A stretch of DNA of 64,000 bases from the NCBI GenBank assembly GCA_002050235.1, contig MWST01000018.1, positions 62,001 to 126,000 of the forward strand, read 5' to 3'. Source of the stretch: Polyangiaceae bacterium UTPRO1. GTDB taxonomy: Bacteria; Desulfobacterota; Binatia; UTPRO1. The translations under genes and the position numbers were made by a program. Below the pieces are notes generated by a model, which saw nothing but the letters and a program-made list of their open reading frames with translations, did not search any database and was not told where the DNA came from. Shown here piece after piece: positions 9,162 to 41,506 of this stretch; position 1 is the first letter of the stretch, and the number at the start of each line of letters is the position of its first letter.

Positions 9162-9173
9162 CCGCAAACGGCC

Positions 9174-11380: not shown

Positions 11381-11393
11381 GGATCACGAGCCC

Positions 11394-20816: not shown

Positions 20817-21644
20817 ATGACCCTGCCGATGCTCTCCACCGACGCCAGCGAAGTCCCCCTCGCATCGGGGCCGGCCGCCGCGCGCAAAGTCGAGATCCTG
20901 GGGGTGAGGATCGCAAACCTGCACACCATCGAGGCCGTCGCGCACATGCAGGCTCTCGTGCGGACGGCGGCAGCGCACGCCCGCACCCTCTATATAGTGA
21001 ACGCGCACACGCTGAACCTCGCCTACGACGACCCCGCGTACCGCCGGATCCTGAACAGCGGCGACGCGGTCTTCGGCGATGGCACCGGCGTCCGCTGGGC
21101 CGCCCGCTGGCAAGGCAAGAAGATCATCGCCAACCTGGTCGGCACCGACCTCCTGCCGTTCTTCTTCGTGAACACGATGGAGCGCGGCTATCGCTACTTC
21201 CTCCTCGGCGCCCTGCCGGAGGTCGTCGCGCGCGCCGCCGCCCATCTCCCCGAAGCGTTTCCCGGACTGATCGTCGCCGGCCATCAACACGGCCACTACG
21301 ACCCGAGCGAGCACGACGCGATCCTCGCGAAGATCAACACCGCGCGCCCGGACCTGCTCCTGGTGGGGATGGGCAACCCGCTCCAGGAGCGCTGGATCCA
21401 CGACAATCGCGAGCGCCTGATCAATGTCAAACTCGCAGTCGGCGTCGGCGGCCTCTTCGATCACTGGGGAGGCGTCCTCAAGCGCGCGCCGCGCTGGGTA
21501 CGCCGCAACGGCTTCGAGTGGGTGCAACTGATGTTGCAGCAACCGCACAAGTGGCGCCGGTACCTGATCGGGAATCCGAAGTTTTTGCTGCGGGTGGCTG
21601 AAGAAGCGCATCAGCACAGAAGGTCCGCGACCCGCCTGCTCTGA
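20817..21644 (+). CDS. WecG/TagA/CpsF-family glycosyltransferase
   Basis: 275 residues. Family GT26 enzymes add N-acetylmannosaminuronic acid, ManNAc or similar to a lipid-linked acceptor. Visible motifs are VEILGVRIANLHTIEAV, IVNAHTLNLAYDDPAYRRIL, FGDGTGVRWAARW, FFLLG-like RYFLLGALPEV, LLLVGMGNPLQERWI and GVGGLFDHWGG, with the conserved APRWVRRNGFEW near the end. With WecB at 37718 in the same locus, ManNAc or a derivative is a reasonable donor. It is the last high-GC gene before the low-GC cassette. Confidence 0.92.
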   Translation: MTLPMLSTDASEVPLASGPAAARKVEILGVRIANLHTIEAVAHMQALVRTAAAHARTLYIVNAHTLNLAYDDPAYRRILNSGDAVFGDGTGVRWAARWQGKKIIANLVGTDLLPFFFVNTMERGYRYFLLGALPEVVARAAAHLPEAFPGLIVAGHQHGHYDPSEHDAILAKINTARPDLLLVGMGNPLQERWIHDNRERLINVKLAVGVGGLFDHWGGVLKRAPRWVRRNGFEWVQLMLQQPHKWRRYLIGNPKFLLRVAEEAHQHRRSATRLL

Positions 21645-21646
21645 CG

Positions 21647-22477
21647 ATGAGCCCACTTGTAACCGCACTACGCTGGCACACGAAAAAAATAGCGCGCGGC
21701 GCGACTGCTCTGTTCTCTATGCTTTCTGGGCTTCTCTGGGTGAAAGCCCGGCGGAAAACGCCACACGTGCGGGTACTCATGTATCATCGTTTTCGCGATA
21801 CCCCACGTGACCCCTTCAGCGTGCGTCCGGAGGAATTCGCTAGCCAGATGCGCTGGCTCGCCCAACATCAACTTGCGATCTCCCCCGACGACTTCGTAGC
21901 GTTCCTCGATGGGAACCGCGCGCTTCCCAGCGGCAGCGTTCTGGTGAGCATCGATGATGGCTTCCTGGATTTTCTGTCCGAAGCCGTCCCCATCATGAAA
22001 CGCTACGGAATTCCCGGGATTTGCTTCATCCCAGTAGCCGACGTGGGCGACTCTGAACATGTGTCGTGGGCTGAGCTTGCAGCACTTGCCGCAAGCGGCA
22101 TCGAAGTCGGCTCGCATTCGTACAACCATGTGTCGCTAGGACACCTGGCGGAGATCGAAGTTGCCGATCAACTGCGACGTTCTCGCACCGAATTAGAGCA
22201 ACGATTGAAACACCCTGTCCGGATGTTCGCCTATCCCTACGGAACCCGGGCAGATCACAACTCCAGTACGCGTAACGCCCTTCGTAAGGTCGGTTACACG
22301 CTCGGATTTGTCACGCAGCACGGCGCTGTCGCTCCTGACTGCGACCGCTTCACCATTCCTCGCATAAAGGTGGAGGGTGGCGAATCTATGTGGATGTTCC
22401 GCCTGCTCGTGCGAGGCGGACTCGACGCTTGGTCCGTCTTCGATCGGATATTCTGGCGCCTTCAGGCAACACCATGA
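21647..22477 (+). CDS. Polysaccharide deacetylase (PgaB/YadE-like NodB domain)
   Basis: 276 residues. N-terminal basic stretch, then VRVLMYHRFRDTPRDPFSV, the NodB motif VSIDDGFLDFL (D-D pair), GIEVGSHSYNHVSLGHL (H-x3-H) and FAYPYGT. A hydrophobic stretch near residues 17-33 may anchor it. It is the first gene of the lower-GC block and starts just 2 bases after the WecG-type gene. The stop overlaps the next start (ATGA). Likely removes N-acetyl groups from the polymer or precursor. Confidence 0.87.
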   Translation: MSPLVTALRWHTKKIARGATALFSMLSGLLWVKARRKTPHVRVLMYHRFRDTPRDPFSVRPEEFASQMRWLAQHQLAISPDDFVAFLDGNRALPSGSVLVSIDDGFLDFLSEAVPIMKRYGIPGICFIPVADVGDSEHVSWAELAALAASGIEVGSHSYNHVSLGHLAEIEVADQLRRSRTELEQRLKHPVRMFAYPYGTRADHNSSTRNALRKVGYTLGFVTQHGAVAPDCDRFTIPRIKVEGGESMWMFRLLVRGGLDAWSVFDRIFWRLQATP

Positions 22478-23520
22478 CTTCGTCGGAGGTCCCACCAAAC
22501 GAGCTTGCAATCGTCATCATCACGCGCAACGAAGCGGCACATATTGCCATGTGTATCGAGTCGGTCTTGCGAGCCACGGCAGCCTTCCCCACCAAACCAG
22601 ATGTCGTCGTCGTCGACTCAGATTCAAGCGACGCCACCACCACAATCGCTGCGCGCTACCCCGTCCGTGTATTTCGTTACCAGGCGTCACCTACCTCTGC
22701 TGCGGCGGGGCGCTGGATAGGCACCCGTCTCACTAACGCACCCTTTGTCTTTTTTTTAGACGGTGACTGTCAATTATCCGAGGGTTGGCTTGAGGTTGCC
22801 CTCGCGAAATTGAGTGCCGATTCCACCCTCGGAGTAATCTGCGGCACACGGTACAATATCGTGAATGGCGTAATGGATACAGCTAATGCGACTGCTGCAC
22901 TCGGCGGGAGCGCACTCTATCGGCGGGCGGCACTTGAGCGCAGTGGGGGTTTTAATCCTTTCATTATTGGAGGCGAGGAACACGAATTGCGAGTTAGACT
23001 GGAGGCACACGGCTATCGTGCCTCGTCCACTCGGGAGCTTATGTCACTGCACCACACCATGAAAAAAGAAACTCCCCGCGGTATGTGGCGACGTTATCGG
23101 ACTGGAATGCAAGGCGGGCCCGGTCAAGTTCTACGTGTGGCCTTACGCGACGGCCTCTTCCTGCAACAGGCCCGATACTTTGATCGATATGTAGGAACCG
23201 CTGCGTACCTCCTGATAGGCATTCTAACGTTCCTGCTGGCTATCAGTGTCTCTGCATTACCGACGATACTTTGGGCATTAGTCGGCGTTGGCGCAGCATT
23301 GATGCTGGTGTGGCGCCGCCACAGCGCAAGAGAAGCGGCCTTCATCGTTCTCGATTGGGTTTCTGGGGCCATCGCCAGTATCCGGAGCTTTGCGAGACAG
23401 CCACATCATCCCGACGACTTTGCGTTCAACCTCGAGGAAATCGGACCTTTCGTCTCCAGCCCGAACAACGCCCGTGAGACGGACTTGCCCGTCGTAGTCG
23501 AACCTACCGCGTGCCGTTAG
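22474..23520 (+). CDS. Family 2 glycosyltransferase with C-terminal membrane segments
   Basis: 348 residues from an ATG overlapping the previous stop. The GT-A core shows ELAIVIITRNEAAHIAMCIE, VVVDSDSSDATT and FFLDGDCQLSEGWL (D-G-D metal motif), then IGGEEHELRVRLEAHGY with the catalytic-base region. Two membrane helices follow at about 232-275 (AYLLIGILTFLLAISVSALP and the next stretch), so the enzyme faces lipid-linked acceptors. The lower-GC codon use matches the cassette. The acceptor and donor are unknown. Confidence 0.87.
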   Translation: MTSSEVPPNELAIVIITRNEAAHIAMCIESVLRATAAFPTKPDVVVVDSDSSDATTTIAARYPVRVFRYQASPTSAAAGRWIGTRLTNAPFVFFLDGDCQLSEGWLEVALAKLSADSTLGVICGTRYNIVNGVMDTANATAALGGSALYRRAALERSGGFNPFIIGGEEHELRVRLEAHGYRASSTRELMSLHHTMKKETPRGMWRRYRTGMQGGPGQVLRVALRDGLFLQQARYFDRYVGTAAYLLIGILTFLLAISVSALPTILWALVGVGAALMLVWRRHSAREAAFIVLDWVSGAIASIRSFARQPHHPDDFAFNLEEIGPFVSSPNNARETDLPVVVEPTACR

Positions 23521-23560
23521 GTCTTCACGAGCGACCTACAGACGTTGCCTCTGAGTGCAT

Positions 23561-24679
23561 ATGACGCGGCAAAAGCAGCGAATCCGGGTAGTTCACTTTC
23601 ATTCGTCTAAAGGTCTGTACGGTCCGGAGCGCTGGACCTATCTCGCCTTGCGGGCGCTCGCAGATAGCGAGATAGATCAGGAAGTCCTAACGATAGGTAC
23701 GAAGCCCGGCTATGGGGATTTCGCCCGATTTCTGATCCGCCACGGACTACCGGCGCAACACCTCGCACTGGGCGGCAAATTTACCGTCCAACAGGTTCGC
23801 GCCATTCGCGAACTACTCGTAGAGCGGCGCGTTGATGTCCTCCACACGCACGGCTTTAAGTCGGACATCCTCGGCTATTTCGCAACACGCTATCTGCCGA
23901 TCGGGCTGGTTTCGACGCCTCACGGTTGGTGTGACCACGAAAGCCTTCGTATCCGCCTGTACGAAATGGTCGGGCGGCAATTCCTGCGCGGATTCGATCG
24001 GATCTATCCGCTGAGCGAACATCAACTGGAGGCGTTGAAAGCATACCGCCTCGGCACCAAGGTCCGCTGCATTAAAAATGCCGTGGACCTCGGCAATCTA
24101 GAGGGCACTTGGAAGGAACGCCAAGCCTCACCACCACGGGAGCCGATGATACTGTTTGTAGGAAGGCTCGCGCGAGAAAAGGGCTTGATAGATCTTATCG
24201 AGGCGTGCGCAATTGTAGCTCGCAAGCGACGATTTCAGGTCGTTATCGCAGGTGAGGGGCCGGCGATGCAGGAAGCATACGCTAGCGCGACGAGAACAGG
24301 GGTCGTCGATCGCATCACTTTCGCCGGTTTCGTAGAAGATGTGCGCCCATTTCTCCGTGCCGCAACAGTCTTGGCGCTGCCATCCTATTCGGAAGGTCTG
24401 CCGCGGGTGGTCATGGAGGCGTTTGGCGCCGGGGTGGCAGTGGTGGGAACCGATATCCCTGGACTTCGCGAACTGATTGTTCATGGGCGAACCGGACTTC
24501 TGATTCCAGTAGGCGATATTCAGGCGCTAGCGTCGGCGCTTGAAACCCTTTTGATCGACACTCAACTGAATTTCCAGCTAGCAGAGGAGGCCCGAGACCT
24601 GATCGCGCGTGACTATTCGCCGCAACGCCTAGCAGGGGAGTTGCGTGACGAGTACACACGCATCGCGGTCGGTAGGTAA
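23561..24679 (+). CDS. Family 4 glycosyltransferase
   Basis: 372 residues from ATG (a GTG two codons earlier is possible). It has the GT-B layout: N-terminal VVHFHSSKGLYGPERWTYLA, HTHGFKSDILGYF, then the C-terminal nucleotide-sugar domain with ILFVGRLAREKGLIDLIEAC, VVIAGEGPAMQEAY, ITFAGFVEDVRPFL and LPSYSEGLPRVVMEAFGAG, the E-x7-E motif. It is a retaining enzyme by family. It sits 40 bases after the GT2 gene and 183 bases before the flippase. Confidence 0.9.
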   Translation: MTRQKQRIRVVHFHSSKGLYGPERWTYLALRALADSEIDQEVLTIGTKPGYGDFARFLIRHGLPAQHLALGGKFTVQQVRAIRELLVERRVDVLHTHGFKSDILGYFATRYLPIGLVSTPHGWCDHESLRIRLYEMVGRQFLRGFDRIYPLSEHQLEALKAYRLGTKVRCIKNAVDLGNLEGTWKERQASPPREPMILFVGRLAREKGLIDLIEACAIVARKRRFQVVIAGEGPAMQEAYASATRTGVVDRITFAGFVEDVRPFLRAATVLALPSYSEGLPRVVMEAFGAGVAVVGTDIPGLRELIVHGRTGLLIPVGDIQALASALETLLIDTQLNFQLAEEARDLIARDYSPQRLAGELRDEYTRIAVGR

Positions 24680-24862
24680 TCATGCGTGAAGGATAGCCCA
24701 TGTTTTTCGCGGACGTTCTTACACCGTAACGAGCGTAGGGCGAGAGGGTGAGGGCAAAGGATATCGTGCACAAGGGGCAACGTCGGATCGGATCCCGGCG
24801 ATGGGAGATCATTTAGGTGACGCGCATGCCAGGACGTATTCGCACCAGTTATCAATAGGCCA

Positions 24863-26350
24863 ATGACGCATCGGGATAGTACCGTACCGTCGTCCGGACG
24901 ACGTATCTTTAGAAATACTGTCGCCCTCGTTGTCTTACGGGTGATGATGCCGGCAGTGTCGATGATTCTGGTATTTGCGATCTCTCGAGTTCTGGGAACC
25001 GACGGGCTTGGACAATATACGCTGGCCTTTACATATCACTACTTCTTTGTGACAGTTGCACCCTTAGGGCTCTACTCGGTGATTACCCGAGACGGGGCAC
25101 AGGATACGGAACGTCTCGAAGACCTCGTAAATCATGCCAGTACGCTTGGTGTCGTTGCGGCTCTTATCCTAACTCCGCTGATGGCGGCACTTGGCCCTCT
25201 CCTCGGCTACGACCGTGGGGCGACGACTGCGATCGTGATTGCCAGCTTGGCGCTCCTGCCGTCTACGTTGGGGATGTTATACGACGGCGCCTTCGTGGCC
25301 CGCGAGCGTATGGACTATCTGGCTGTTGTCGCGCTCGTGGAAAATGCAATCAAGGTGGGCCTAGCTGGTCCGGCTCTTTTACTCGGCTACGGCCTACCGA
25401 CAGTGATCGCACTCGCTGTCGTCGGCCGGTTTATGGCTAACGTAATCGCTGTGAGATTTCTCCGATCGCTCGACGTCCGAGTACGCTTAGGGCACAGACT
25501 TGGCTTGCTCAAGGAGCTGCTCGGAGCAGCACCGACATTTGTTGCGATCGCTATTTTTGCAACGCTTTATTGGCGAATCGACGTCTTTATGCTGTCGAAG
25601 ATGGGGAGCGTCGAAGATGTGGGGCTCTACGGAGCTGCCTGGCGCCTTCTCGAACTCGCCCTCGTTATTCCTCATAGTTTCTGTCTATCTTTGTATCCCC
25701 AGTTGGCCGCTGCGGTAAGAGCGGATCACGCCCAACTGCTTCGTCTCGGCCGTTTAGCGATGCGCTTTCTCGCGGCGACAAGTCTGCCGTTGGCAGCGTG
25801 GATCACATTAATGGCGCCAGACGTAATGCAGATGCTCTACGGTCAGGCTTTTAGTTCAGCAGGCGGGACACTAACAATTCTGATGTGGACACTCGTACCC
25901 TACGGCTGGGTGCGATACCATGCGTACGTTCTAATCGCAGCCGAATTACAAAGCATAGACCTGGCTTTGAATATCATTCTAACGGTCGTGAACGTGACGC
26001 TGAATTTGTATCTTATTCCAGCCTACGGGCCATGGGGAGCCGGACTGGCGACATTGATCTCAATGGTCGTATATGCAATAGCGCAAGTTGTTTATCTAAG
26101 ATGGCGAGCTCCCGAACTGGCATCAGCGTTAAGCGTAAACAGCATCCCCCTAGCAGGGGCCGTGGCGATGATAGCGCTGACTTGGCCGTTACGCGGTCAA
26201 CATATTGTAATTCGGGGCATAGCGCCAATTCTGATATATATAGGCGCTTTAACCGGCGGGGGCTTCTTTGAACGGGAGGAGATGGCGATGATGAGGCGGC
26301 TCGGCCAACGCTGCGTGGGAATACTCGCCTTTCGGCGCGTGATTTCGTAG
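24863..26350 (+). CDS. Wzx-type polysaccharide flippase (MOP superfamily)
   Basis: 495 residues with 12 or more hydrophobic helices spread over its length, typical of Wzx/RfbX flippases that turn the undecaprenyl-linked repeat to the periplasm. The opening SGRRIFRNTVALVVLRVMMP and GLGQYTLAFTYHYFFVTVAP are family-like. Later segments LYWRIDVFMLSKMGSVEDVG and GLYGAAWRLLELALVIPH match the conserved middle of the fold. No enzymatic motif. A-T-rich codon use is obvious. The 183-base gap upstream has no gene. Confidence 0.9.
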   Translation: MTHRDSTVPSSGRRIFRNTVALVVLRVMMPAVSMILVFAISRVLGTDGLGQYTLAFTYHYFFVTVAPLGLYSVITRDGAQDTERLEDLVNHASTLGVVAALILTPLMAALGPLLGYDRGATTAIVIASLALLPSTLGMLYDGAFVARERMDYLAVVALVENAIKVGLAGPALLLGYGLPTVIALAVVGRFMANVIAVRFLRSLDVRVRLGHRLGLLKELLGAAPTFVAIAIFATLYWRIDVFMLSKMGSVEDVGLYGAAWRLLELALVIPHSFCLSLYPQLAAAVRADHAQLLRLGRLAMRFLAATSLPLAAWITLMAPDVMQMLYGQAFSSAGGTLTILMWTLVPYGWVRYHAYVLIAAELQSIDLALNIILTVVNVTLNLYLIPAYGPWGAGLATLISMVVYAIAQVVYLRWRAPELASALSVNSIPLAGAVAMIALTWPLRGQHIVIRGIAPILIYIGALTGGGFFEREEMAMMRRLGQRCVGILAFRRVIS

Positions 26351-26364
26351 CACGCCTCGCACCG

Positions 26365-27021
26365 ATGGCACAAGGCGAGCAGGGAATGTCGCGCGGACGT
26401 CTAATCGCTGCAGTCGCTATAAGCGCAATTCCCTTTAAGGCTGTGCGTACGCAACTGTATCGGTGGACCTTTGGGTACAGAATAGTCGGATCGGAGATTG
26501 GCTTTGGTACGGTGATCGTTGTGGCGCACGCCAGCTTAGACAATTGCAAGATAGGACGCTTCAACAGGTTTTTGGGGCCGATGCGGATCTCAATCGGTGC
26601 CGGAAGCGAAATCGAGAATCACAATGTGTTCGACTGCGGCGCGTGGGCGACAAGAGAGCACAGCACAGTACCGTATGCGCGCGAGCTATCAATAGGACGT
26701 CGGACCCGAATAACGAGCCACCATTTTTTTGATGTCGTCGGGCGCTGTGTACTCGGAGATGATTCCTGGGTCGCCGGACGTGATTCACAATTTTGGACGC
26801 ACGGCGTAGGAGTGACTGAACGGGACGTCAGTATCGGGCGGGGTACGTATATCGGAAGTGCTGTCCGATTCGCCCCCGGGAGCAGCGTCGCCGACAACGT
26901 CATCGTAGGACTCGGCAGCGTGGTGACAAAGAGAATAGATACGTGCAACGCCATCGTAGCGGGCATGCCGGCCCAGGTGATATCAGAAGGCCGCGGCTGG
27001 ACGAGCATACCCGAGTCGTAG
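26365..27021 (+). CDS. Hexapeptide-repeat (left-handed beta-helix) acyltransferase
   Basis: 218 residues. The hexapeptide pattern runs from about 55 to 205: GFGTVIVVAHASLDNCKIGR, IRISIG-like MRISIGAGSEIENHNVFDCG, then SIGRRTRITSHHFFDVVGRC and a closing IVGLGSVVTKRIDTCNAIVA with MPAQVI. This resembles O-acetyltransferases of surface polysaccharides (WbbJ/LpxA superfamily). It starts 14 bases after the flippase gene and is followed by the convergent SGNH hydrolase gene, so acyl groups may be both added and removed in this cassette. Confidence 0.82.
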   Translation: MAQGEQGMSRGRLIAAVAISAIPFKAVRTQLYRWTFGYRIVGSEIGFGTVIVVAHASLDNCKIGRFNRFLGPMRISIGAGSEIENHNVFDCGAWATREHSTVPYARELSIGRRTRITSHHFFDVVGRCVLGDDSWVAGRDSQFWTHGVGVTERDVSIGRGTYIGSAVRFAPGSSVADNVIVGLGSVVTKRIDTCNAIVAGMPAQVISEGRGWTSIPES

Positions 27022-27216
27022 CAACCGCCGATTCACGGGGAAGTGAGTGGAGCGCGGAGAACACGGACCGCAGGAGACTCCAGCGGTGATGGGTCGGTCC
27101 AAACCGTACTGCGACTGCTTCTACGGGGTCTGCCGGACGTCTCGAATGTACTGAGCTCTCTCTAATACAAGCGAGCGGGCGGGCCGCAGAGCAGGGACAC
27201 ACGTAGGTCTGGGCCC

Positions 27217-28290
27217 TCAGGGACCCGTGGCGGCACTCTGGGCTTTAGCCAGGCGCGCCTCAAGAAGTCGTGCGACGGGGTCAAGCCATTGGCGCGCAAC
27301 CACGCGGGCACCCTCTGACGTGTTGTGAACGTCATCGACAAAGAGGCCGTCGTTCACTACCTCTGCCGCAACGTCCGCAAGCGCGGCTCCTGTCTCGGCG
27401 GCTACTTGGCGTGTAACGGCGTTGTATGCGGCAAACGCCGCGGTCGTGCGGCGTGCGGCCCTGGCAGCTTGGGTCCCTAGCACGATGTCGACTCCGTGTG
27501 CGTGGGCCAGCGCGACAAGGCTCCGTTGATTGCGTCCAAAGAATTTGAGGCCTGGATGCCAGTCGCGGCGCGTGTCGTAGTCCCATCCTGCGGTACGAAA
27601 GGGGACGAGCCGGTTGTCGATGAAACGTGCCAGTCGCGACACGCGCTCAAGCTCAGCCACAACCCCAACTCTATGGCGAAAACCCAGATAAAATGGCGTC
27701 AAGTACTTGTTAGCATAGTCGGTCTCAGCCCCCGCGCCGAAATAGTTTACGGACAGATCGTTAATGGCTTCGTAGGCTGTAACGATGTCGGGCTCAGCAT
27801 CGAGGACGCGGAGTGCAAGGTTCACAACGCTATGGGCGCTCGAGTACGCGTTTTCTCCTGCATTGAGGACTCGTATCCGGTAGTCCGGGAAGCGCGCGTC
27901 GAGAAGCCGTTCGAGTTCCCGCGGATAGCTCCGTCCTTCCGCGTCGGGGCTGGGTAACGTCGTCGAGCCTCCGAGGCAGACAATGCGTATCTCCCCTGTC
28001 GGCTTGCCGCGCAACACACGCTCCCCCTCCTTGAACACCAGCGTGTTGCCCTCATGGTACGGTGCGGGCCAGCCATCACTAGTAAAAAATGGGCTCACAA
28101 AATCGTGCGGATTTTCCCAGAAGCCCCTTCCGATGCTCCAAGCATACCAGCGCACGCCGATCTCAAGGATGAATAGCACGAGCACGAGTGCGGCTACTGC
28201 GAGCGCGATGCTGGCTAGCAACGGATAGCCACGCCCGCCCCTCCCCCTAGGCGGTGTGTCGCTCGCGCCGCGGTTACCTTCTCTCGTCAC
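27217..28290 (-). CDS. Membrane-anchored SGNH/GDSL-type hydrolase
   Basis: 357 residues, read leftwards. A single N-terminal membrane segment at about 23-46 (LLASIALAVAALVLVLFILE) anchors it, with the catalytic part outside. SGNH blocks are visible: block I IVCLGGSTTLPSP (Ser), block II VLNAGENAYSS (Gly), block III TAYEAINDLSV (Asn) and block V DGLFVDDVHNTSEGAR (Asp/His). Such proteins are esterases or O-acyltransferase partners acting on surface polymers. It is the only gene besides the beta-helix one to run on the minus strand in this block. Confidence 0.85.
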   Translation of the reverse strand: MTREGNRGASDTPPRGRGGRGYPLLASIALAVAALVLVLFILEIGVRWYAWSIGRGFWENPHDFVSPFFTSDGWPAPYHEGNTLVFKEGERVLRGKPTGEIRIVCLGGSTTLPSPDAEGRSYPRELERLLDARFPDYRIRVLNAGENAYSSAHSVVNLALRVLDAEPDIVTAYEAINDLSVNYFGAGAETDYANKYLTPFYLGFRHRVGVVAELERVSRLARFIDNRLVPFRTAGWDYDTRRDWHPGLKFFGRNQRSLVALAHAHGVDIVLGTQAARAARRTTAAFAAYNAVTRQVAAETGAALADVAAEVVNDGLFVDDVHNTSEGARVVARQWLDPVARLLEARLAKAQSAATGP

Positions 28291-28418
28291 TCAACTTCCT
28301 CAGCGAGAGCCTGCACCTGACCACTGGAAGACGCGGCGGGCCTTTTGCACGCCGATCCTCACCCGATACGAGGCACTTCCGGAGCACCCATAATACTACT
28401 GGCGTGGGAGCGCCGCTG

Positions 28419-30149
28419 CTACCGTATCGGATCCACGCTTAGTAGATTCGGCGCTGTTATTCCGGCACTGAATTCAAATGCGCCGACGTCAGGACCGGCG
28501 CCACTATACGTAAGGTTTACCGGGTCGCCCGCCGCGAACGAGATCGGTGTAGCAACAATAATCTTATTGCCGACGTCATCCACTGTTGTGATCAAGACAG
28601 GCGGATTGGCACCGACGATGATTTGGTCTGGTGCAATGAGGCCGCCGTACCCATCTTGGAAGAACGAAGCACGAACAACCGGCACGCTAGTAGTCTGGTT
28701 GCCGCTGGCCCTAGTTGTAGTGAGCTCTACTCCGGCATCAATCGCTGGACTATTGGCAACTAGGTCATAGTTGCGGGCTGCAGGATTCACAAAGATCGCC
28801 GTGGCGGGGACGGTGATCTTCTTGCCGCGCGGATCCTGAACGTCAGGAGAATTGGCAGCCTGAAAGGCTCGAAACTCGTTGTCGCCGGTAGGCGCAGGTA
28901 ACCCACAATCATAGGAGCGCGGGTTCCAGGAGATGCCTTTATTCCCAAAACGGTACATGTTTCCATCGAGCTTCAACGAGGAGTGCCGTACGTCGATTTT
29001 GCCGCCACTGACTGCTGCGACAACAAGAGTATAGTCGGTGGACCCCACGAAAAGATTATTTCGTAATTCCATTCCGCCGAAGCTGCTGCCATAGCCGGAG
29101 TCGACATAATCCGAGTAGAAGAGGACAGCGTGCGCCGCACCGTAGATTGTATTATTGTAGATAGCCGCAGCGTTGGGCTGGTTATATTCATTGAATCCAA
29201 AACCAGTTGCGCGGTTGAAACGGGCTATAGTATATTTCGCCGGTTCGCCGTGGATCTTAATTGAGCCGCCGACTCCCCATACGTCATTACCCTCAAGAAG
29301 ATAATGATGCACAGCCGAGTGACCACCCATGTCAATCTGGTCGGCGCCAACTGTGGCGGTACCGTTGTCATACGCAACGTTGTTTCGCACAACGACGTGG
29401 TGGAGTCCGGCAGCTTCGCCACCCACTTGAATACCATCAAAATTGCCGCTTCCGGCGTTATTCCAAACCCGATTACGTTCGACTAGATAATAGCCCCCCG
29501 GAGAGTTCCAGAGCACGATCCCACCGTGGGGATTGTCATGAACTTTATTATCATGGATCGTAGTATACGAGGGGACAGTCGAGCCTTCCACCCAGACTGC
29601 GCCTGCGGCCGCACAGTTCGATACGTCGAGATTACCCACATCGATATGCGTAGAATTTCCGGAGAGGCTAACGCAATAACCCTGGGAGTTCTTTATTGTC
29701 AGACCATCGAGCTTGACGTACGAAGCGCCTGAAAACGCCCATAGAGAACCATACGTACCGGTCGAGAGACCGGCGCCGTCGATGACAGGCGTCTGTCCAG
29801 GTGCAGCTTGGAAGACAATCGGAGCTGTTGGGGTGCCGCTTTTTGTGACCGTAACCTTTTCTACGTATTTGCCGTTGCCGATAACGGCGGTATCGCCAGG
29901 GCCGAGCACGTTCGCTGCCTTGCCGATGGTACGCCAGGGTGCGGCTTGGGTTCCCGGATTCGTATCGGAACCGGTGGGCGACACATGATAGGTGGTTGCG
30001 TTCGAGTTGACGGCGGTCAGGAGGGCGACGGCCGTAGCCAAGAGGATTCCGTAGGCATGCGCTTTCCACGGTTGCCGGGCGGCGCTGGTGGCGTCGAGAC
30101 GGCTGCCTACGGCAAGACTATGCTGGGCGACGAAGGCGATACGTGTCAT
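28419..30149 (-). CDS. Secreted right-handed parallel beta-helix protein
   Basis: 576 residues from the ATG at 30149 (GGAG upstream). A long signal sequence (about 1-52, GILLATAVALLTAVNSNA) is followed by TTYHVSPTGSDTNPG, PWRTIGKAANVLGPGDTAVI, the usual start of the pectate-lyase-like family. Rungs with many N-N and G-x-N turns (NKVHDNPHGGIVLWNS, ERNRVWNNAG, VVRNNVAYDNG, LRNNLFVGS) fill about 150-400. C-terminal DxGAFEF-like DVGAFEF closes the helix. It could cleave, epimerise or bind a polysaccharide. It is divergent from the polymerase gene with a 400-base gap. Confidence 0.83.
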   Translation of the reverse strand: MTRIAFVAQHSLAVGSRLDATSAARQPWKAHAYGILLATAVALLTAVNSNATTYHVSPTGSDTNPGTQAAPWRTIGKAANVLGPGDTAVIGNGKYVEKVTVTKSGTPTAPIVFQAAPGQTPVIDGAGLSTGTYGSLWAFSGASYVKLDGLTIKNSQGYCVSLSGNSTHIDVGNLDVSNCAAAGAVWVEGSTVPSYTTIHDNKVHDNPHGGIVLWNSPGGYYLVERNRVWNNAGSGNFDGIQVGGEAAGLHHVVVRNNVAYDNGTATVGADQIDMGGHSAVHHYLLEGNDVWGVGGSIKIHGEPAKYTIARFNRATGFGFNEYNQPNAAAIYNNTIYGAAHAVLFYSDYVDSGYGSSFGGMELRNNLFVGSTDYTLVVAAVSGGKIDVRHSSLKLDGNMYRFGNKGISWNPRSYDCGLPAPTGDNEFRAFQAANSPDVQDPRGKKITVPATAIFVNPAARNYDLVANSPAIDAGVELTTTRASGNQTTSVPVVRASFFQDGYGGLIAPDQIIVGANPPVLITTVDDVGNKIIVATPISFAAGDPVNLTYSGAGPDVGAFEFSAGITAPNLLSVDPIR

Positions 30150-30549
30150 CGAATAACTCCGAAAGGCAAATGTCATGGCGTACGGTCTCGCTTCCGAAGG
30201 AGCCGCGATGGGCATCCCAGAGTACCTGGACATATCCGGCTTCACGGTGCCGGAGCCACCATGGCCGCAGGCCGAGGGCGCGAAAGCCTACCTACACCTC
30301 CAGGCGCGGTGATGCAATCAGTGTGCCACTAATGCGGGTCGCACTCGTAGCGGGTTGAACGACGAGATGCGACAGACGACGACGCAAGCGGGATATCGGT
30401 TTTTGGCGCGCGCCAACGATATGGCGCGCGCCAAATCTCTCACGATAGCATCTTGACCGCGTCTCCCAATCTTCCGATCATGCAGCAGACGCCCAATGCG
30501 CTGAAAATTCGGGCTGTTGAAGTAGGTTCCCCTGGCCGCCAAAGTCGGT
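30150..30549. other. Divergent intergenic region between the beta-helix and polymerase genes
   Basis: 400 bases with no credible gene. Its notable content is the pair of tandem palindromes at 30403-30433. The sequence around 30340-30470 also contains several short AT-rich tracts suitable for promoters, but I cannot place a -10/-35 pair with confidence. Confidence 0.5.
30403..30433. promoter_or_regulatory. Two tandem perfect palindromes, 18 bases centre to centre (probable operator pair)
   Basis: TTGGCGCGCGCCAA (30403-30416) is a perfect 14-base palindrome, and TGGCGCGCGCCA (30422-30433) repeats its 12-base core. The two centres lie 18 bases apart, close to two helical turns, so bound dimers would sit nearly on one face. 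The site is about 250 bases from the beta-helix start and 120 from the polymerase start. No T-run follows either element in either direction, so a terminator is unlikely. Confidence 0.55.
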
Positions 30550-32019
30550 ATGCCCAAGCCCATTAGAGAGGAGGCGCGCGCCTCTCATCACAGCACCGTC
30601 GCGCCCGCGCCGCTGCTCGCGTCTCTAGTGGGCGTCGCCGTCGGATCTGCCGTTCTAGCCCTACGCTCCTGGGACCTGCGTTGGATCCTCGGGATTACCC
30701 TAGTTGCCATCGCTAGCGTCGTCGGAGCGACGTTACTACGTAGCCTGTACGCTCTCGTTGTTCTTCTAGTCGTCACCATGCAAATCGAAGTTGCAATCCG
30801 TCCCGGCCACGGCCACGCAGCAACTGCAGGTCTACAGCTATACAGCACCGGGATCCTAGCGGCGCTTATCCTCCTGGTTCTCCGTTATCGGCGCTCACCA
30901 ATTCGTTGGTCCGGCTACCTGCACCGCCCGATCGCGCTGCTATTTATCATGCTGCTTCTGGCCGTAATCTTTAGTTCGGAACGTTTTGCCGGCCTAGACT
31001 TTTTACTTATGCAGTTTCAACTTTTTCTCATCTACGTGACTGCAATGAGCGTTATTCATTCTGAGGCCGATATAAAGACACTTGTTACGCTACTCCTGGC
31101 CACTCTCCTGACTCAAGGCCTCGTCTATTTCATCCAATCGGCACTGGGTATGGGGTTCAACATCACGGGCGATACCTGGGATCTCAGCGAAGAATTGCCG
31201 CGCCCAGGCGGGACTGTAAGCGCCAACCCAGCCGGATTTGCTAGTTATATAATTCCCCTGATGTTTATTGCGATAGCCCAGTTGACCACCGCCTCGTCTT
31301 GGCGTCGACCGTGGACTCTAGTCGCCGTAAGTGTCGGGCTAGTCGCCCTATTATTGACATTCACACGCGCGGCTTGGGCCGGATTTCTTATCGGCTCTAT
31401 GTATCTTATTCTGTTCGGTATTCGCTATACGCGAATGGCGCTACGCACTGTCGCACTTATCGTCAGCGCGGCAGTAATCGCGGCGATTGCGCTCGCACCC
31501 CTCATCCACCTCCGCCTTTCTGAGCCGGTAGGCGCCGCCTACGATGAGCGGGCAGGGCTGATGCAAATTGCCCTTAATATTATCGCCTCGCACCCGCTCT
31601 TCGGTGTCGGGCCTGGCGCCTACGGCTATGTGTTTAAGAATTACCTCCCCTCCGGAATGGATCAATGGCTTTACACAGTGCACAATGAATATCTCTTGCG
31701 TGCAGCAGAAAGCGGCATTTTAGGCGGCGCAGCTTGGGTCTGGCTTCTTTTTGCAGCGTATCGCCAAAGCCGTCTACTTCTGACGAAATCCGCTTCGGCA
31801 GAAATGCGCACCCTCGCACTTGCTTGGGGCGCAGGGCTACTAAATCTCGCCTGGCAAATGTACTGGGTGCCGTGGCGCGGCTTCGGCTACAATGCCCTTC
31901 TCTGGTTTATGCTCGGTGTGATCGAGGCGGCAGCAATATGCGAATGGGGCCCTCCTAATCCGGCAGGTGGTCGGGGCACGAATGCTCTCCGTAGACTCCG
32001 CCAGCCAACACTCACATGA
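30550..32019 (+). CDS. O-antigen ligase/polymerase (Wzy/WaaL superfamily)
   Basis: 489 residues, strongly hydrophobic with about 11-12 helices. The large periplasmic loop carries the Wzy_C signature region: RAGLMQIALNIIASHPLFGV, GPGAYGYVF and TVHNEYLLRAAESGILGG, with the H-N-E-Y-L motif near residue 377. Polymerises or ligates the flipped repeat unit. It uses cassette-type codons. Its stop overlaps the next gene's start. As the only such gene in the window, it is the likely polymerase of this locus. Confidence 0.88.
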   Translation: MPKPIREEARASHHSTVAPAPLLASLVGVAVGSAVLALRSWDLRWILGITLVAIASVVGATLLRSLYALVVLLVVTMQIEVAIRPGHGHAATAGLQLYSTGILAALILLVLRYRRSPIRWSGYLHRPIALLFIMLLLAVIFSSERFAGLDFLLMQFQLFLIYVTAMSVIHSEADIKTLVTLLLATLLTQGLVYFIQSALGMGFNITGDTWDLSEELPRPGGTVSANPAGFASYIIPLMFIAIAQLTTASSWRRPWTLVAVSVGLVALLLTFTRAAWAGFLIGSMYLILFGIRYTRMALRTVALIVSAAVIAAIALAPLIHLRLSEPVGAAYDERAGLMQIALNIIASHPLFGVGPGAYGYVFKNYLPSGMDQWLYTVHNEYLLRAAESGILGGAAWVWLLFAAYRQSRLLLTKSASAEMRTLALAWGAGLLNLAWQMYWVPWRGFGYNALLWFMLGVIEAAAICEWGPPNPAGGRGTNALRRLRQPTLT

Positions 32020-33035
32020 AAAAATCTTATCGTCTGGAGCTCCTGACGTGGGACCCGGTGTGTCAACGTAGCACCTCGTTCGCGGAGCGGTTAGGACAGC
32101 CTCTGCATACGATCCACTACCTCTGGTATCGGCGTCCCCTCATAGCGCCCATCAAATATTCAGCCCAATTCTTGGCAACTCTGCACCTTCTCAAGAAATT
32201 GCAGCCCGATGTCACAGTGGTCTCCAACCCGCCCCCGTTCGCCGCATTGACAGCACTGCTGTTCCACAGTGCACATGGTGGCGGGATCGTAGTCGACGCG
32301 CATACTGGCGTCTTTCTAGAACCTAAGTGGAAAATGTTTCGGCCACTCAATAAATTCCTCGTGCGTCATTCACTAATGACGATCGTAACCAACGAGGGCC
32401 TATCGGATCTGGTGCGAAAATGGGGTGGCGAGCCCTTCGTCCTGCCTGACCCATTGCCGCGCCTCGACGCTAGAGGCGCAAGATTCTCGTTCCGACCGGG
32501 TCAATTTAACGTAGCAGCGATTTTCTCGTTTTATGAGGATGAGCCGATAGACGAGGTTTTGGCGATAACCAAATTTCCAGAGGATATGGATGTGTGGGTG
32601 ACAGGGGATTCCCGTCGCGTATCCGGTAAAACTCTCGCACGCGTTTCACCGCGCGTTAAGCTGACCGGCTTTCTGGACCGTCGATCGTATGATGCGCTAC
32701 TCCAGCAAGCGGATGCTGCAATCGTATTATGCACGCGTCCACACACGATGTTGTGTGGTGCATATGAAGCAGCCGCGCAGGGCCTCCCACTCATCACGTC
32801 ACATTCGGATGCGATGGAGAAGGTTTTTCGTAAGGGGACGATCTTTGTGAATAATAACACGCAAGACATCGAGCGCGGACTCCACCAAGTGCGGCAAAGA
32901 CATGGGGAGCTCGCTCGGGACATGCGACAGCTAAGTGCGGAACTCCAGGGGGAATGGGACATACGCTTTCAGCAGTGGCAGGACGAAGTGAAGCGCAGGT
33001 GGACAGCGGCAAAGTTAGGACGACGAAAGGGATAG
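32016..33035 (+). CDS. GT-B-fold glycosyltransferase (GT4-like)
   Basis: 339 residues. The N-terminal half resembles Alg14/GT4 acceptor domains (QPDVTVVSNPPPFAALTALL, GGGIVVDAHTGVFLEPKW). The C-terminal half shows VAAIFSFYEDEPIDEVLAI, DVWVTGD, VKLTGFLDRRSYDALLQQAD and TMLCGAYEAAAQGLPLITS, a GT4-like E-x7 region with AYEAAAQG. The start overlaps the polymerase stop by 4 bases (ATGA). It is the last gene of the low-GC cassette. Retaining mechanism by family; donor unknown. Confidence 0.8.
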   Translation: MKKSYRLELLTWDPVCQRSTSFAERLGQPLHTIHYLWYRRPLIAPIKYSAQFLATLHLLKKLQPDVTVVSNPPPFAALTALLFHSAHGGGIVVDAHTGVFLEPKWKMFRPLNKFLVRHSLMTIVTNEGLSDLVRKWGGEPFVLPDPLPRLDARGARFSFRPGQFNVAAIFSFYEDEPIDEVLAITKFPEDMDVWVTGDSRRVSGKTLARVSPRVKLTGFLDRRSYDALLQQADAAIVLCTRPHTMLCGAYEAAAQGLPLITSHSDAMEKVFRKGTIFVNNNTQDIERGLHQVRQRHGELARDMRQLSAELQGEWDIRFQQWQDEVKRRWTAAKLGRRKG

Positions 33036-33063
33036 AGGTGCGTAGACGCACGACGTGGCACCT
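33036..33063 (+). terminator. Overlapping hairpin potentials right after the cassette's last stop codon
   Basis: Beginning at the base after the TAG stop, AGGTGC (33036-33041) pairs with GCACCT (33058-33063). An inner GTGCGT-AG-ACGCAC (33038-33051) pairs with itself and excludes the outer stem. Only TTCT follows, so termination is not proven. The two stems are mutually exclusive, as in attenuators, but no leader peptide is seen. Confidence 0.3.
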
Positions 33064-33334
33064 TCTCAACGAATGCCTGGCGTCGAGGTCCGATATTAGG
33101 ACGAGAGGGTCATGATTGGTGCGAAGGGGCGATTAAAGGACACGCATCTGCAAGGCAGTAGCGATAGTTAGATCGTCCACAGTTTTCGAGCAGAGTTACA
33201 ACTGATGCATTATGCGCGAGCGGACTGAGGTGAGCGGTCCGAGTTATGACAGCGGGACAACTTGGTCCGAATTGATCTCGGAAAGGATTGGAGCCGTCTT
33301 TGAGGGCCAAAGATAGCCTCGGCGAGCAAGGCCG
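33064..33334. other. Gap at the right boundary of the low-GC cassette
   Basis: No gene is visible. The composition is still cassette-like up to about 33300 and then turns GC-rich at the carbamoyltransferase start. No repeat, att-like site or mobile-element remnant could be seen here by eye. Confidence 0.4.
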
Positions 33335-35161
33335 ATGACGACGATCCTCGGCATCTCGGCCTACTACCACGACTCGGCGGCGTGCCTCGTACGCGACGGC
33401 GAGATCGTTGCTGCGGCGCAGGAGGAGCGCTTCACGCGCAAGAAGCACGACGACGGGTTTCCGCGCCACGCCGTCGCCTACTGCCTGCGTGAGGCCGGAG
33501 CGCGGCTCGAAGACCTCGACTACGTGGGCTTCTACGACAAGCCGCTGCTCAAGTTCGAGCGCATCCTCGAGAACTATCTCGGCGTGGCGCCGCGCGGCCT
33601 GCGCTCGTTCCTGACCGCGATGCCGGTATGGTTGAAGGAGAAGCTCTTCACCGGCGACGCCATCCGTCGCGAGCTCGGCGGCTACGAGGGCAAGCTGCTC
33701 TTCGCCGAGCATCACGAGTCGCACGCCGCGAGCGCGTTCTATCCGTCGCCGTTCGAGGAGGCGGCGGTGCTGACCATGGACGGCGTCGGCGAGTGGGCGA
33801 CCTCGTCATACGGCGTCGGCCGCGGCAAGGACCTGGAGATCCTGGCCGAGCTCCGCTACCCGCACTCGCTCGGCATGCTCTACTCGGCCTTCACCTACTA
33901 CACCGGCTTCAAGGTGAACTCCGGCGAGTACAAGGTGATGGGGCTCGCCCCCTACGGCGAGCCGCGCTTCGTCGACCGCATCCTGACCGACGTGCTCGAT
34001 CTGAAGGAAGACGGCTCCTTCAAGCTCAACATGGATCTCTTCAACTACCTGCACGGCCTGACGATGACGAGCAGCGCCTTCCACCGGATCTTCGGCGGGC
34101 CGCCGCGCGAGCCCGAGTCCAAGCTCACGCAGCGCGAGATGGATCTGGCGGCGTCGGTGCAGGTGGTGACCGAGGAGGTCATGCTGCGGATGGCGCGCCA
34201 CGTACACCGCGAGACCGGCATGGAGAACCTCTGCCTCGCCGGCGGCGTGGCGCTGAACTGCGTCGGCAACGGCCGCCTCCTGCGCGAAGGTCCCTTCGCT
34301 CGGCTCTGGATCCAGCCGGCGGCGGGCGACGCCGGCGGCGCCCTCGGCGTGGCGCTCGCCATCCACCACAAGGTGCTGGGGAACTCCCGCCGGCGCAACG
34401 GCTCCGGCGGCGACGCGATGCAGGGCGCCTATCTCGGACCGGCGTTCTCGGACGACGAGATCGAGGAGTTTCTGCGCGGCGCCGGGGCCGTCTACGAGAA
34501 GCTGCCGACCGCGGCGATGATCGCGCGCACCGCCGAGGCGCTCACCCGGGAGGAGGTCGTCGGCTGGCTCCAGGGCCGCATGGAGTTCGGCCCGCGCTCG
34601 CTCGGCTGCCGCAGCATCCTCGGCGATCCGCGCTCGCGGAAGATGCAGTCGATCATGAACTTGAAGATCAAGTTCCGCGAGAGCTTCCGGCCCTTCGCGC
34701 CGAGCGTGCTCCGCGAGCACGTGGCCGACTACTTCGACCTCGACTGCGACTCGCCGTACATGCTGCTAGTCGCTCCTGTTCGCAAGGAGCGCCGCATCGC
34801 CATGACGGCGGACGAAGAGCGCCTCTTCGGCATCGACAAGCTGAACGTTCCACGCTCCGACCTTCCCTCCGTGACCCACGTCGACTACTCTGCCCGCATC
34901 CAGACCGTGCACGCCGACACCAATCCGCTCTACCACGCTCTTCTCACCCGCTTTCGCGAGCTGACCGGCTGCGCCGTGCTCGTCAACACGAGCTTCAACG
35001 TCCGCGGCGAGCCCATCGTCTGCACGCCGCGGGACGCCTACCTCTGCTTCATGCGCACGGAGATGGACACTCTGGTGCTCGGCTCCTTCGTGCTCGAGAA
35101 GGCGCGCCAGCCAAAGCTCGAAGACGATGTCGACTGGCGATCGCTCTACGCACTCGATTGA
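33335..35161 (+). CDS. Carbamoyltransferase (NodU/CmcH/TobZ family)
   Basis: 608 residues. Two-domain carbamoyltransferase: an N-terminal Kae1-like part (TTILGISAYYHDSAACLVRD, EERFTRKKHDDGFPRHAV, AEHHESHAASAFYPSPF, VLTMDGVGEWAT, GLAPYGEPRF, LCLAGGVALNCVGNGRLL). The YrdC-like C-terminal part shows GRMEFGPRSLGCRSILGDPR, FRPFAPSVL and NTSFNVRGEPIVCTP. Uses carbamoyl phosphate and ATP to carbamoylate a hydroxyl, here probably on a sugar. Its 3-prime end overlaps the next gene by 35 bases. Confidence 0.95.
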   Translation: MTTILGISAYYHDSAACLVRDGEIVAAAQEERFTRKKHDDGFPRHAVAYCLREAGARLEDLDYVGFYDKPLLKFERILENYLGVAPRGLRSFLTAMPVWLKEKLFTGDAIRRELGGYEGKLLFAEHHESHAASAFYPSPFEEAAVLTMDGVGEWATSSYGVGRGKDLEILAELRYPHSLGMLYSAFTYYTGFKVNSGEYKVMGLAPYGEPRFVDRILTDVLDLKEDGSFKLNMDLFNYLHGLTMTSSAFHRIFGGPPREPESKLTQREMDLAASVQVVTEEVMLRMARHVHRETGMENLCLAGGVALNCVGNGRLLREGPFARLWIQPAAGDAGGALGVALAIHHKVLGNSRRRNGSGGDAMQGAYLGPAFSDDEIEEFLRGAGAVYEKLPTAAMIARTAEALTREEVVGWLQGRMEFGPRSLGCRSILGDPRSRKMQSIMNLKIKFRESFRPFAPSVLREHVADYFDLDCDSPYMLLVAPVRKERRIAMTADEERLFGIDKLNVPRSDLPSVTHVDYSARIQTVHADTNPLYHALLTRFRELTGCAVLVNTSFNVRGEPIVCTPRDAYLCFMRTEMDTLVLGSFVLEKARQPKLEDDVDWRSLYALD

Positions 35162-38848: not shown

Positions 38849-40350
38849 GCACGCCGCCGCGCACCGTTTTTCGGTCGACCGTCTTCATCCTCACCGTCGT
38901 CGCTCTGGGGCTCCGACTCTTTCGCCTGAACGCGCAGAGCCTGTGGTACGACGAGATCGGCTCGGTGCAGGTGATCGCGACGCCGCTCGGCGAGCTCGCG
39001 GCCGGCATCGCCGCGGGGCGCGTCGAGCCGACCGCTTGGCTCAGCACGGCGTACTGGGCGCTCACGAAGGCGGCGACGTGGCCCGCCCTCGGCGGTCGTG
39101 ACGCCACCTTGCGCCTCACCTCGGCGCTGGTCGGAACGGCGACGGTCCCGGCCCTCGCCTGGGCGACGGCGCCGATCCTGCCGTCCGGCGCCGTCATTGC
39201 TGCAGCCGCGGCGCTCGCGCTCTCGCCCTTCCACGTCTGGTACTCGCAGGAAGTGCGGCCCTACGTGCTGCTGATCCTGCTCGTCACGCTCGCCGTCGGC
39301 GCTTGGGTCCGGGCACTGGCGCGCGGCGGCGCCGGCCGCTGGGCGGTCGTGACCGGGCTGGTTGCGCTGGCGCTCTACACCCACCCGATCGCGCTCTCCT
39401 TGCCGGTGGTCCTGGGCGTCCACCTGCTCGCGCACGCTCGCCGCGACCGCCGCCACGTCCTGGCGGCGCTGGTCGCTCTCGCGGCCGCGGGCGTGGCCTT
39501 CGTTCCCGCGCTGCTGCTCGTCCGTGCGCACGGAGCGAACAATCCGGCCGACGTCCGCGGCGTCGGCTGGCTCGACCTGCCCTACGTCCTCTACGCCTAC
39601 GCCGTCGGCTTCTCGTGGGGTCCGAGCACCACCGACCTCCACTCGGATCGCCTGCGCGCGGTCGTCGCCGCCTGGCCAGCGGTCGCGGCGGCAACCACTG
39701 TCTTCGGCGCGCTCGCGGGGCGCGGGCTCTTGGCCCTCCGCCGGCTCGACGCGTCGACACGGACGCTGCTGCTCGCATGGCTCGTCCTGCCGCTCGCGCT
39801 CGCGCTGGCGGGTGCGGTGGCTACGGCCAATCCGCTGAACCCGCGCTACGGCGTCGTCGCCTTCCCGGCCTTCGTGGTGCTGCTTGCGCTCGGGGCCGGC
39901 AACCCGCGGCGGCCGCTCACCGCCGCACTGGTAATCGCCGCCGTCGGCATAGCGCTCGCCGCGCGCGTCGAGCTCGCGCTCGACCCACGCTACGCCAAAG
40001 AGGACTGCCGCGGGCTCGCCGCCGTCCTGCGCGCCGAAGCGGCGCCGGACGACCTCGTCATCGTCAACGCGCCGTACATGGCGACCGCCGTTCGCTACTA
40101 CTATCCGGGCCCGGCGGCGATCGTCCCCTATCCGCGCAGCGACGGCATCCGCGACCTCGATCCGAGTCGGGCCGCCGCCGATCTCCGCGCCCTCGGCGCC
40201 GGCCGCGCCCACGTCTGGCTGATCGCGACCCGGAGCTTCCACGGCGACCGCGCCGGCACCCTGCCGCGGGTGCTCGCCCACGAGCGCGTCGCCGACCGCC
40301 GCTTCGAGCTCCCCGGGATCGTCGCCTGGCGCTACACGCGGCCGGACTGA
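38845..40350 (+). CDS. GT39/ArnT-like membrane glycosyltransferase
   Basis: 501 residues from a GTG overlapping the previous stop. About 10-11 membrane helices. The first periplasmic loop carries LNAQSLWYDEIGSVQ, whose Asp-Glu pair is the catalytic motif of PMT/ArnT-type polyprenyl-phosphate sugar transferases. HVWYSQEVRPYVLLILLVTL follows as in this family. The C-terminal 120 residues are a soluble domain (ALDPRYAKEDCRGLAAVLRA, ending WLIATRSFHGD). Likely adds a sugar from a polyprenyl-phosphate donor to the surface polymer. It ends the polysaccharide locus. Confidence 0.85.
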   Translation: MSTPPRTVFRSTVFILTVVALGLRLFRLNAQSLWYDEIGSVQVIATPLGELAAGIAAGRVEPTAWLSTAYWALTKAATWPALGGRDATLRLTSALVGTATVPALAWATAPILPSGAVIAAAAALALSPFHVWYSQEVRPYVLLILLVTLAVGAWVRALARGGAGRWAVVTGLVALALYTHPIALSLPVVLGVHLLAHARRDRRHVLAALVALAAAGVAFVPALLLVRAHGANNPADVRGVGWLDLPYVLYAYAVGFSWGPSTTDLHSDRLRAVVAAWPAVAAATTVFGALAGRGLLALRRLDASTRTLLLAWLVLPLALALAGAVATANPLNPRYGVVAFPAFVVLLALGAGNPRRPLTAALVIAAVGIALAARVELALDPRYAKEDCRGLAAVLRAEAAPDDLVIVNAPYMATAVRYYYPGPAAIVPYPRSDGIRDLDPSRAAADLRALGAGRAHVWLIATRSFHGDRAGTLPRVLAHERVADRRFELPGIVAWRYTRPD

Positions 40351-40396
40351 CCGCGCCCGACGCCGGCGCGCCGCGGCACCGGCGCTCTTCGGTAGC

Positions 40397-41506
40397 TCAG
40401 CGGCGGCAGATGGAGAGCGAGTTCTTCTGCCTGCACGGAACGTCCATGTCGCGCAGGCACTGCGCGGCGCTGAAGCGCAGCGCCACCGTGAGCGTCGACT
40501 CCGCCGCGGCCGCCGCGAGGTCGTCCGAGCTCCCCATGATGGTGACGAGCCCGCGGTCGCCCTTCATGCGGATGTCCAGACGCTCGATGCCGTGGCTCCA
40601 GAACGCCGCCGCCGCGCGTGACGCGGCGTAGCGATAGCGTCCCTTCGCAGCGCCGGCGCGCATCAGCTCGGGGGAAATGGTGGAGGCATAGGCGAGGGCA
40701 CCGTCGGCGGTCCGCATCTCGACCGTCGCCCCGGTGGTTGCCGGATCGAGCGGCCCCGAGAGCCGGAACCGGCCCTTGGCGACGAGCTTCACGCCCTGCG
40801 CGCCGGTCTGGAACTTGACGACGCTGAACTGCATCGGGATCCCCGCCGGGGCGGTGCAGTCGCCGGCAGCGCAGGCATCGGCGAGGCACGGATCGGTGGT
40901 ATCGCAAGCGACGCAGCATCCGGGCGGCCCCGTGTGCGTGCAACGGTCGGCCGCCTCGTCACAGGCGTCGACCGTACAGGCGAAAGCGTCGGCGCAATTG
41001 CGCGGCCCGCTGCTCACGCAGGCGCCGTTGCGACAGATCTCGGCGCCGTTGCAGAAAAGCTCGTCGTCGCACGCGCTGCCGTCGGGAAGCGCCGCGAAGC
41101 TGCACGACGTCTTGGTGACGCAGGTGTCGACGCGGCACGGATTCGCGGCGCCGACGAAGCCTTCCTGCGAGATGCCGCTCTCCTCCCCGTCCCGCAGCGC
41201 CGTGACGGCGAAATAGTTGGTGCCCGAGGGTGCAGGTGCGTAGCTGACGATCGCCGACAGGGTGCCGTCACCGCCGCGGGCGGGATTGCCGCTCCAGATC
41301 GGGGCGCCGGCGCCGTAGGCAGTACCGGCGCTCCGCGCGTAGACGCGGTAGCCGGTCACCGTGTCGGCCGCGCCGGACGGGGGGAGCCAGCGGAGACGCG
41401 CCGCGGCGGCGGCGGCAATGCGGGGAGTGATCAGCGGCAGAAGCAGCGCTCCCACCAGCACGAGCGGCGCCGTGGCGCCCACCGGCGACAGCATTCTCTT
41501 CCTCAT
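40397..41506 (-). CDS. Secreted protein with fibronectin-like and cysteine-rich modules
   Basis: 369 residues. MRKRMLSP starts a signal peptide (cleavage near AAAAAA). The best Shine-Dalgarno precedes an ATG four codons later. Residues about 33-125 are a fibronectin-III-like domain (LRWLPPSGAADTVTGYRVYA, SGTNYFAVTALRDGEESG). A Cys-rich part follows at about 130-235, with the D-D-x-x-F-C-N-G-A-E-x-C and CTVDACDEAADRCTH patterns common in secreted proteins of this bacterial group. The last 130 residues (KLVAKGRFRLSG to CRQKNSLSICRR) are a beta-rich domain I do not recognise. Probably a surface or secreted binding protein. Confidence 0.7.
   Translation of the reverse strand: MRKRMLSPVGATAPLVLVGALLLPLITPRIAAAAAARLRWLPPSGAADTVTGYRVYARSAGTAYGAGAPIWSGNPARGGDGTLSAIVSYAPAPSGTNYFAVTALRDGEESGISQEGFVGAANPCRVDTCVTKTSCSFAALPDGSACDDELFCNGAEICRNGACVSSGPRNCADAFACTVDACDEAADRCTHTGPPGCCVACDTTDPCLADACAAGDCTAPAGIPMQFSVVKFQTGAQGVKLVAKGRFRLSGPLDPATTGATVEMRTADGALAYASTISPELMRAGAAKGRYRYAASRAAAAFWSHGIERLDIRMKGDRGLVTIMGSSDDLAAAAAESTLTVALRFSAAQCLRDMDVPCRQKNSLSICRR

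Follow-up and report, generated by a model that had tools for sequence, protein, structure and literature searches.

A low-GC segment of an exopolysaccharide locus in Polyangiaceae bacterium UTPRO1 is probably a divergent allele of a genus-shared assembly cassette

In the Wzx/Wzy pathway, a priming enzyme starts a lipid-linked unit, which is then extended by glycosyltransferases (GTs), flipped by Wzx and polymerized by Wzy. The Wzx, Wzy and GT genes of Salmonella O antigens are very low in GC and have a history apart from that of the housekeeping genes at their flanks. Within such blocks, GC is often lowest in wzx and wzy, and the low GC was explained by transfer from ancestors of lower GC (PMC3715488). 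In the K-loci of Klebsiella, recombination is concentrated in the genes adjoining the central variable region (PMC5359410). The window analyzed in this study is a stretch of 64,000 nucleotides from Polyangiaceae bacterium UTPRO1 (hereafter G000; contig MWST01000018.1, positions 62,001 to 126,000), which lies inside one 470,729-base contig of a draft genome of 3.8 Mb (45 contigs, 89% complete).

The GC content was ~56.8% over ~21,526–33,315 and 70% across the remaining window. In 1-kb windows, GC fell from 0.68–0.70 to 0.53–0.62 between 21.5 and 33.3 kb and then returned to 0.68. A two-level likelihood fit had its optimum at 21526–33315, with a log-likelihood gain of 399, and this best-fit segment, to which no strand was assigned, had a mean GC of ~0.57 in the composition profile. 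The boundaries within 5 log units were 21316–21681 on the left and 33260–33650 on the right. The original prediction of a compositional shift at about 21645 and 33335 was thus confirmed by both the sliding windows and the fit, and the edges were sharp instead of gradual. The predicted interval, 21645–33334, had a GC of 0.568 and practically coincided with gene borders: the left edge of the block is at the 3' end of a wecG-type gene and the right edge just before a carbamoyltransferase gene. In addition, nucleotide similarity to the congeners stops at 21583–21598, in wecG, and restarts at 33332–33334, at the start of the carbamoyltransferase gene. The baseline of the same genome, calculated from 186 one-kb windows of 19 sampled unmasked stretches, was 0.698 (sd 0.032, minimum 0.606), so twelve consecutive low-GC kilobases are far outside chance. 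Third-position GC was 0.57–0.63 in eight of the nine genes of the low-GC middle and 0.66 in the remaining SGNH gene, well below the 0.83–0.94 of the compared flank genes.

The first gene of the segment encodes a polysaccharide deacetylase (deac3; 21647–22477, plus strand; PF01522), followed on the same strand by a GT2 glycosyltransferase (22474–23520; PF00535), a GT4 glycosyltransferase (23555–24679; PF00534), a Wzx-type flippase (24863–26350; PF13440/PF01943, above cut-offs) and a hexapeptide acyltransferase (26365–27021; NCBIfam and Pfam hexapeptide matches). Two minus-strand genes encode an SGNH/GDSL protein (27217–28290; PF13472) and a lyase-like right-handed beta-helix protein (28419–30245; PF13229, PF07602). 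The last two genes, both on the plus strand, encode a Wzy_C membrane protein (30550–32019; PF04932, above cut-off), a family in which polymerase and ligase types are inseparable by sequence, and a GT4-like glycosyltransferase (32016–33035; PF13579), which is the last low-GC gene. The flippase, polymerase, GTs, acyltransferase and SGNH hydrolase claimed earlier for this segment are therefore upheld by family matches, and the deacetylase that opens it, the second GT4-like gene that closes it and the beta-helix gene were added to the earlier gene list. The predicted fold of the beta-helix protein matched those of Pel9A, PL6 lyases and RbmB. However, confidence in the structure model was partial (mean pLDDT 53, with about residues 80–240 above 65), and a lyase function is thus to be taken as a lead. 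The inverted position of this gene in a plus-strand cluster was also kept in four other genomes: G001, G002, G022 and, in part, G074.

Outside the segment, the left flank encodes OPX, Wzz-like, ATPase and priming transferase proteins, a GT2, nucleotide-sugar type enzymes, deacetylases and a WecG-type GT. Its OPX export, chain-length-like, ATPase, kinase-like and priming transferase genes (6683–12848, plus strand) are syntenic in the congeners G001 and G002 as well as in G004 and G092. The polyprenyl-phosphate priming transferase matched TIGR03025 with 383.8 bits (cut-off 295.55), and the outer-membrane export protein matched PF02563 and SLBB above their cut-offs. The candidate Wzz/PCP chain-length protein matched Wzz and GNVR below the Pfam cut-offs and TIGR03007 at E=2e-45 (155 bits against a cut-off of 278.85). 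The last normal-GC gene on the left encodes the WecG/TagA/CpsF-type glycosyltransferase (20850–21644, plus strand; PF03808, 172 bits), whose product was 77–78% identical in the congeners. The first one on the right encodes the carbamoyltransferase (33335–35161, plus strand; PF02543/PF16861), which was 88% identical in the congeners and is followed in the right flank by a phosphodiesterase-like membrane protein and a WecB-type epimerase. The expectation that the priming enzyme, export system and nucleotide-sugar genes stand outside the segment also held, with matches to Bac_transf, SLBB, GFO/IDH, DegT and UDP-GlcNAc 2-epimerase families. Within this Wzx/Wzy-type exopolysaccharide cluster, the segment is best read as the module for assembly, flipping, polymerization and modification of the repeat unit. 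The export, chain-length, ATPase and deacetylase proteins of the left flank resemble families of XrtA/PEP-CTERM loci. Different from those loci, however, every XrtA-family match of the left flank was below its curated cut-off. No exosortase above cut-off was found in the 89% complete genome, where the best match had 26.1 bits (cut-off 105.55) and was on another contig. A diacetamido-uronic acid polymer, considered for the set of dehydrogenase, DegT, acetyltransferase, 2-epimerase and WecG, was dropped, as the family matches were insufficiently specific.

Three further observations concern the surroundings of the segment. The carbamoyltransferase was 83% identical in G092, a genome of another family whose other matched locus genes were only about 35–58% identical, and by this identity the carbamoyltransferase gene may itself be mobile. 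In G002, an SxtJ-family gene (L117:1-398, minus strand) immediately precedes the carbamoyltransferase gene; the gap of roughly 300 bases at this place of the window is too small for it. The contigs of G001 and G002 stop at the same point of degT (18847, at the far ends of L115 and L117), where their first 127 bases are identical, which is probably an assembly break at a common sequence.

Comparison within the genus covered three genomes, G000 and its congeners G001 and G002. The middle of both congeners was collinear with that of G000 and in the same orientation: deacetylase, GT2, GT4, Wzx, a decoration slot, the inverted beta-helix gene, Wzy and GT4. Counterparts of seven of the nine middle genes were found in both congeners and of eight in G002. 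The identities between proteins of G000 and those of the congeners ranged from 47 to 77% in the middle and from 73 to 91% in the near flanks. The middle genes of the congeners had GC of 0.63–0.72, and the strong GC drop was seen only in G000, although middle GC was lower than flank GC in all three genomes. The congeners thus carry the same genes at a different composition, so that of the refuting outcome named with the original prediction, relatives with the same middle genes at the same composition, only the first half was observed. An assembly chimera or binning artefact would call for a draft genome, which this is, and both relatives' contigs do break in degT of the locus. Given a single long contig and collinear homologs at the corresponding position of two further assemblies, such an artefact is hardly credible.

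The order of the module was also kept beyond the genus. In G022, which belongs to another family, the genes are arranged as wecG-deac3-wzx-beta-helix (inverted)-wzy-GT4-GT4, with identities of 43–55% and a normal GC of 0.68–0.74; the assembly module is therefore an old unit. In G004, from another genus of the same family, the left flank is syntenic from export through wecG and is followed by a long and mostly different middle, whose GC also falls, to 0.55–0.65 over its later part. A transposase-domain gene adjoins the middle of G004, the only one of the equivalent regions with such a neighbor.

These comparisons bear on the original prediction, in which an unrelated, serotype-specific middle came from a distant donor by exchange between conserved flanks. 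Its sharp edges at conserved flanks and the separate history of the middle stand. The low GC, the lack of close congener counterparts for deac3 and the SGNH gene, and the different middle of G004 agree with an unrelated middle as well, but G004 is the only such case and only its left flank is conserved. In G001 and G002, the middle is collinear with that of G000, and Wzx was 69–73% identical to the congener proteins versus about 50% for the next best in the class. An unrelated middle is thus largely refuted within the genus and improbable as an account of the segment. With seven of the nine genes collinear in G001 and G002 alike, no more than divergent alleles of one cassette can have been exchanged.

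Within the genus, only the acyl-decoration slot, between wzx and the beta-helix gene, has been replaced by unrelated genes. This slot holds the hexapeptide transferase and SGNH genes in G000 and the hexapeptide transferase gene alone in G002, where its product was 66% identical. In G001, the hexapeptide acyltransferase is absent and the slot holds SGNH and MBOAT genes, with an extra GNAT gene before wzx. A class-wide search at E≤1e-40 found the SGNH gene of G000 only in G000 itself and in the middle of G004 (57%). The decoration slot seems to turn over separately, by gene replacement. Nowhere else in the locus do the gene differences point so directly to altered surface chemistry, and the slot provides a concrete and testable site for surface variation.

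The middle also differed from the flanks in synonymous divergence. Differences at fourfold sites, expressed relative to saturation, were 0.95, 0.93 and 0.86 in the middle for the pairs G000–G001, G000–G002 and G001–G002, respectively, versus 0.67, 0.66 and 0.35 in the flanks (p=1.2e-5 each). Hence, the middles of G001 and G002 are near saturation relative to each other, although both are without a strong GC drop. Because GC pressure could slow the high-GC flanks, C-versus-G differences were also counted alone; for the pair G001–G002, they were 0.383 in the middle versus 0.131 in the flanks. Relaxed synonymous constraint as the sole cause of the high divergence was insufficient to explain these C/G-only changes. 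Two flank genes whose protein identities were like those of the middle, pde (73–74%) and wzz (75–76%), had low synonymous divergence. Moreover, the protein-distance ratio K12/K0x, which is unaffected by a common rate factor, was higher for the middle genes (0.77) than for the flank genes (0.51; p=0.00026, a guide only, because the genes of one cassette are not independent). A uniform rate increase in the middle was disfavored by these ratios. The comparison left out deac3 (ratio 0.44) because it is a probable non-ortholog. Finally, the similarity between G001 and G002 leaps from 77 to 90% at the start of the carbamoyltransferase gene, the same gene edge as the compositional shift of G000. On these divergences, each of the three species seems to carry its own allele of one cassette, an allele that predates the species itself. 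Ratios of similar size were found at normal GC further to the right, in a gene for a PMT_2-like membrane protein (38866–40350, below the Pfam cut-off; K12/K0x 0.81) and an unannotated minus-strand gene (40397–41533; 0.88), and 38866–41533 is a possible second exchange spot.

Gene trees were less discriminating. The three genomes of the genus formed a single clade for both wzx and wzy, and the core middle gene trees did not contradict the species grouping; the import of most middle genes was therefore inferred from divergence and not from a misplaced branch. With the genus intact for these two genes, the G000 allele likely came from a closely related lineage outside the sample. Only deac3 was in conflict. 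It was 47–48% identical to the copies of the congeners, which were 71% identical to each other, and it was not grouped with them (AU p=0.030, a modest signal, tested only once the tree was known). The protein branches of G000 were not consistently long, and its beta-helix branch was the shortest of the three. Searches of 148 genomes of the class, 395 genomes of the phylum and plasmids did not find a closer Wzx copy that could mark a donor, and searches of 395 phylum genomes, phages and viral contigs did not find a close copy of the beta-helix protein. The phylum genomes were sampled from a larger group, and at most three candidates were scored per genome.

If the cassette had been inherited vertically, evolving fast under relaxed constraint with drift toward AT in the G000 lineage and never exchanged within the genus, a conserved gene order would be expected, and it was found. 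Most middle trees, in which the genus stays united and G001 and G002 are nearest or unresolved, and the somewhat lower middle GC of the congeners also agree with such inheritance. It is, however, at odds with the C/G-only synonymous excess, the changed K12/K0x ratio, the jump within 300 bases at both edges and the lack of a consistently long G000 protein branch. The residue composition is shifted, too. The share of FYMINK residues in the middle was 0.205 in G000 versus 0.177–0.182 in the congeners, GC2 was 0.467 versus 0.497–0.499, and GC at codon positions 1 and 2 was shifted, which fits a long stay in a lower-GC background better than recent drift. Vertical inheritance is thus rather unlikely. 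A single ancient low-GC import into the ancestor of the genus, ameliorated more in G001 and G002 and less in G000, would be consistent with a middle GC below flank GC in all three genomes. Nevertheless, all three genomes would then have had the same time to ameliorate the cassette, the near-saturated divergence between G001 and G002 would stay unexplained and the G022 module has a normal high GC, so that this history is very improbable.

Our results are best accounted for by a divergent low-GC allele of a cassette shared by the genus, which was probably swapped in by recombination at the flanks from an unsampled relative of lower GC. An earlier allele would have been replaced by recombination between the conserved flanking genes, wecG on one side and the carbamoyltransferase gene on the other, and the source would have had the same gene order. 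Replacement through the flanks would leave sharp edges such as those seen. No transposase or integrase gene was present among the annotated genes of the segment, as originally noted. Moreover, there were no tRNA or Rfam matches and no inverted repeats of 16 nt or more; direct repeats were short only and did not bracket the segment, and a recombination scar was not found. In the absence of a transposase, tRNA or terminal repeats, a mobile-element explanation was rejected. The new allele would work with sugars and export supplied by the flanks, its acyltransferase and SGNH proteins would decorate the polymer, and the beta-helix protein may trim or modify it. The donor, the route by homologous recombination and the polymer are those that we infer from these comparisons. 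More tentatively, several old alleles of the module with one gene order may be kept across species by balancing selection, exerted for instance by phages or grazers, and be exchanged whole. If so, the module alleles would be several times older than the species carrying them.

Similar to the O-antigen clusters of Salmonella, the locus studied here has a low-GC block of Wzx, Wzy and GT genes whose history is separate from that of its flanks. Different from them, the locus is of an exopolysaccharide/XrtA-like and not of an O-antigen type, and while the Salmonella alternatives comprise highly divergent wzx and wzy genes and different gene sets, the cassette here is collinear, with Wzx at 69–73% identity. 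Likewise, the edges of the segment are at the first conserved genes beside the middle, as in the K-loci of Klebsiella. The Klebsiella exchanges, however, occur within a species and involve many gene sets, whereas those proposed here cross species-level lineages that have a single gene order in common. The kind of event is thus already known and the lineage is new; its particular feature is a kept gene order with near-saturated alleles. An unrelated polymer does not necessarily follow from a sharply bounded low-GC middle, as order and orthology can persist at near-saturated synonymous sites. With this uncultured lineage, an exopolysaccharide locus joins the O-antigen and capsule loci as a probable site of cassette exchange.
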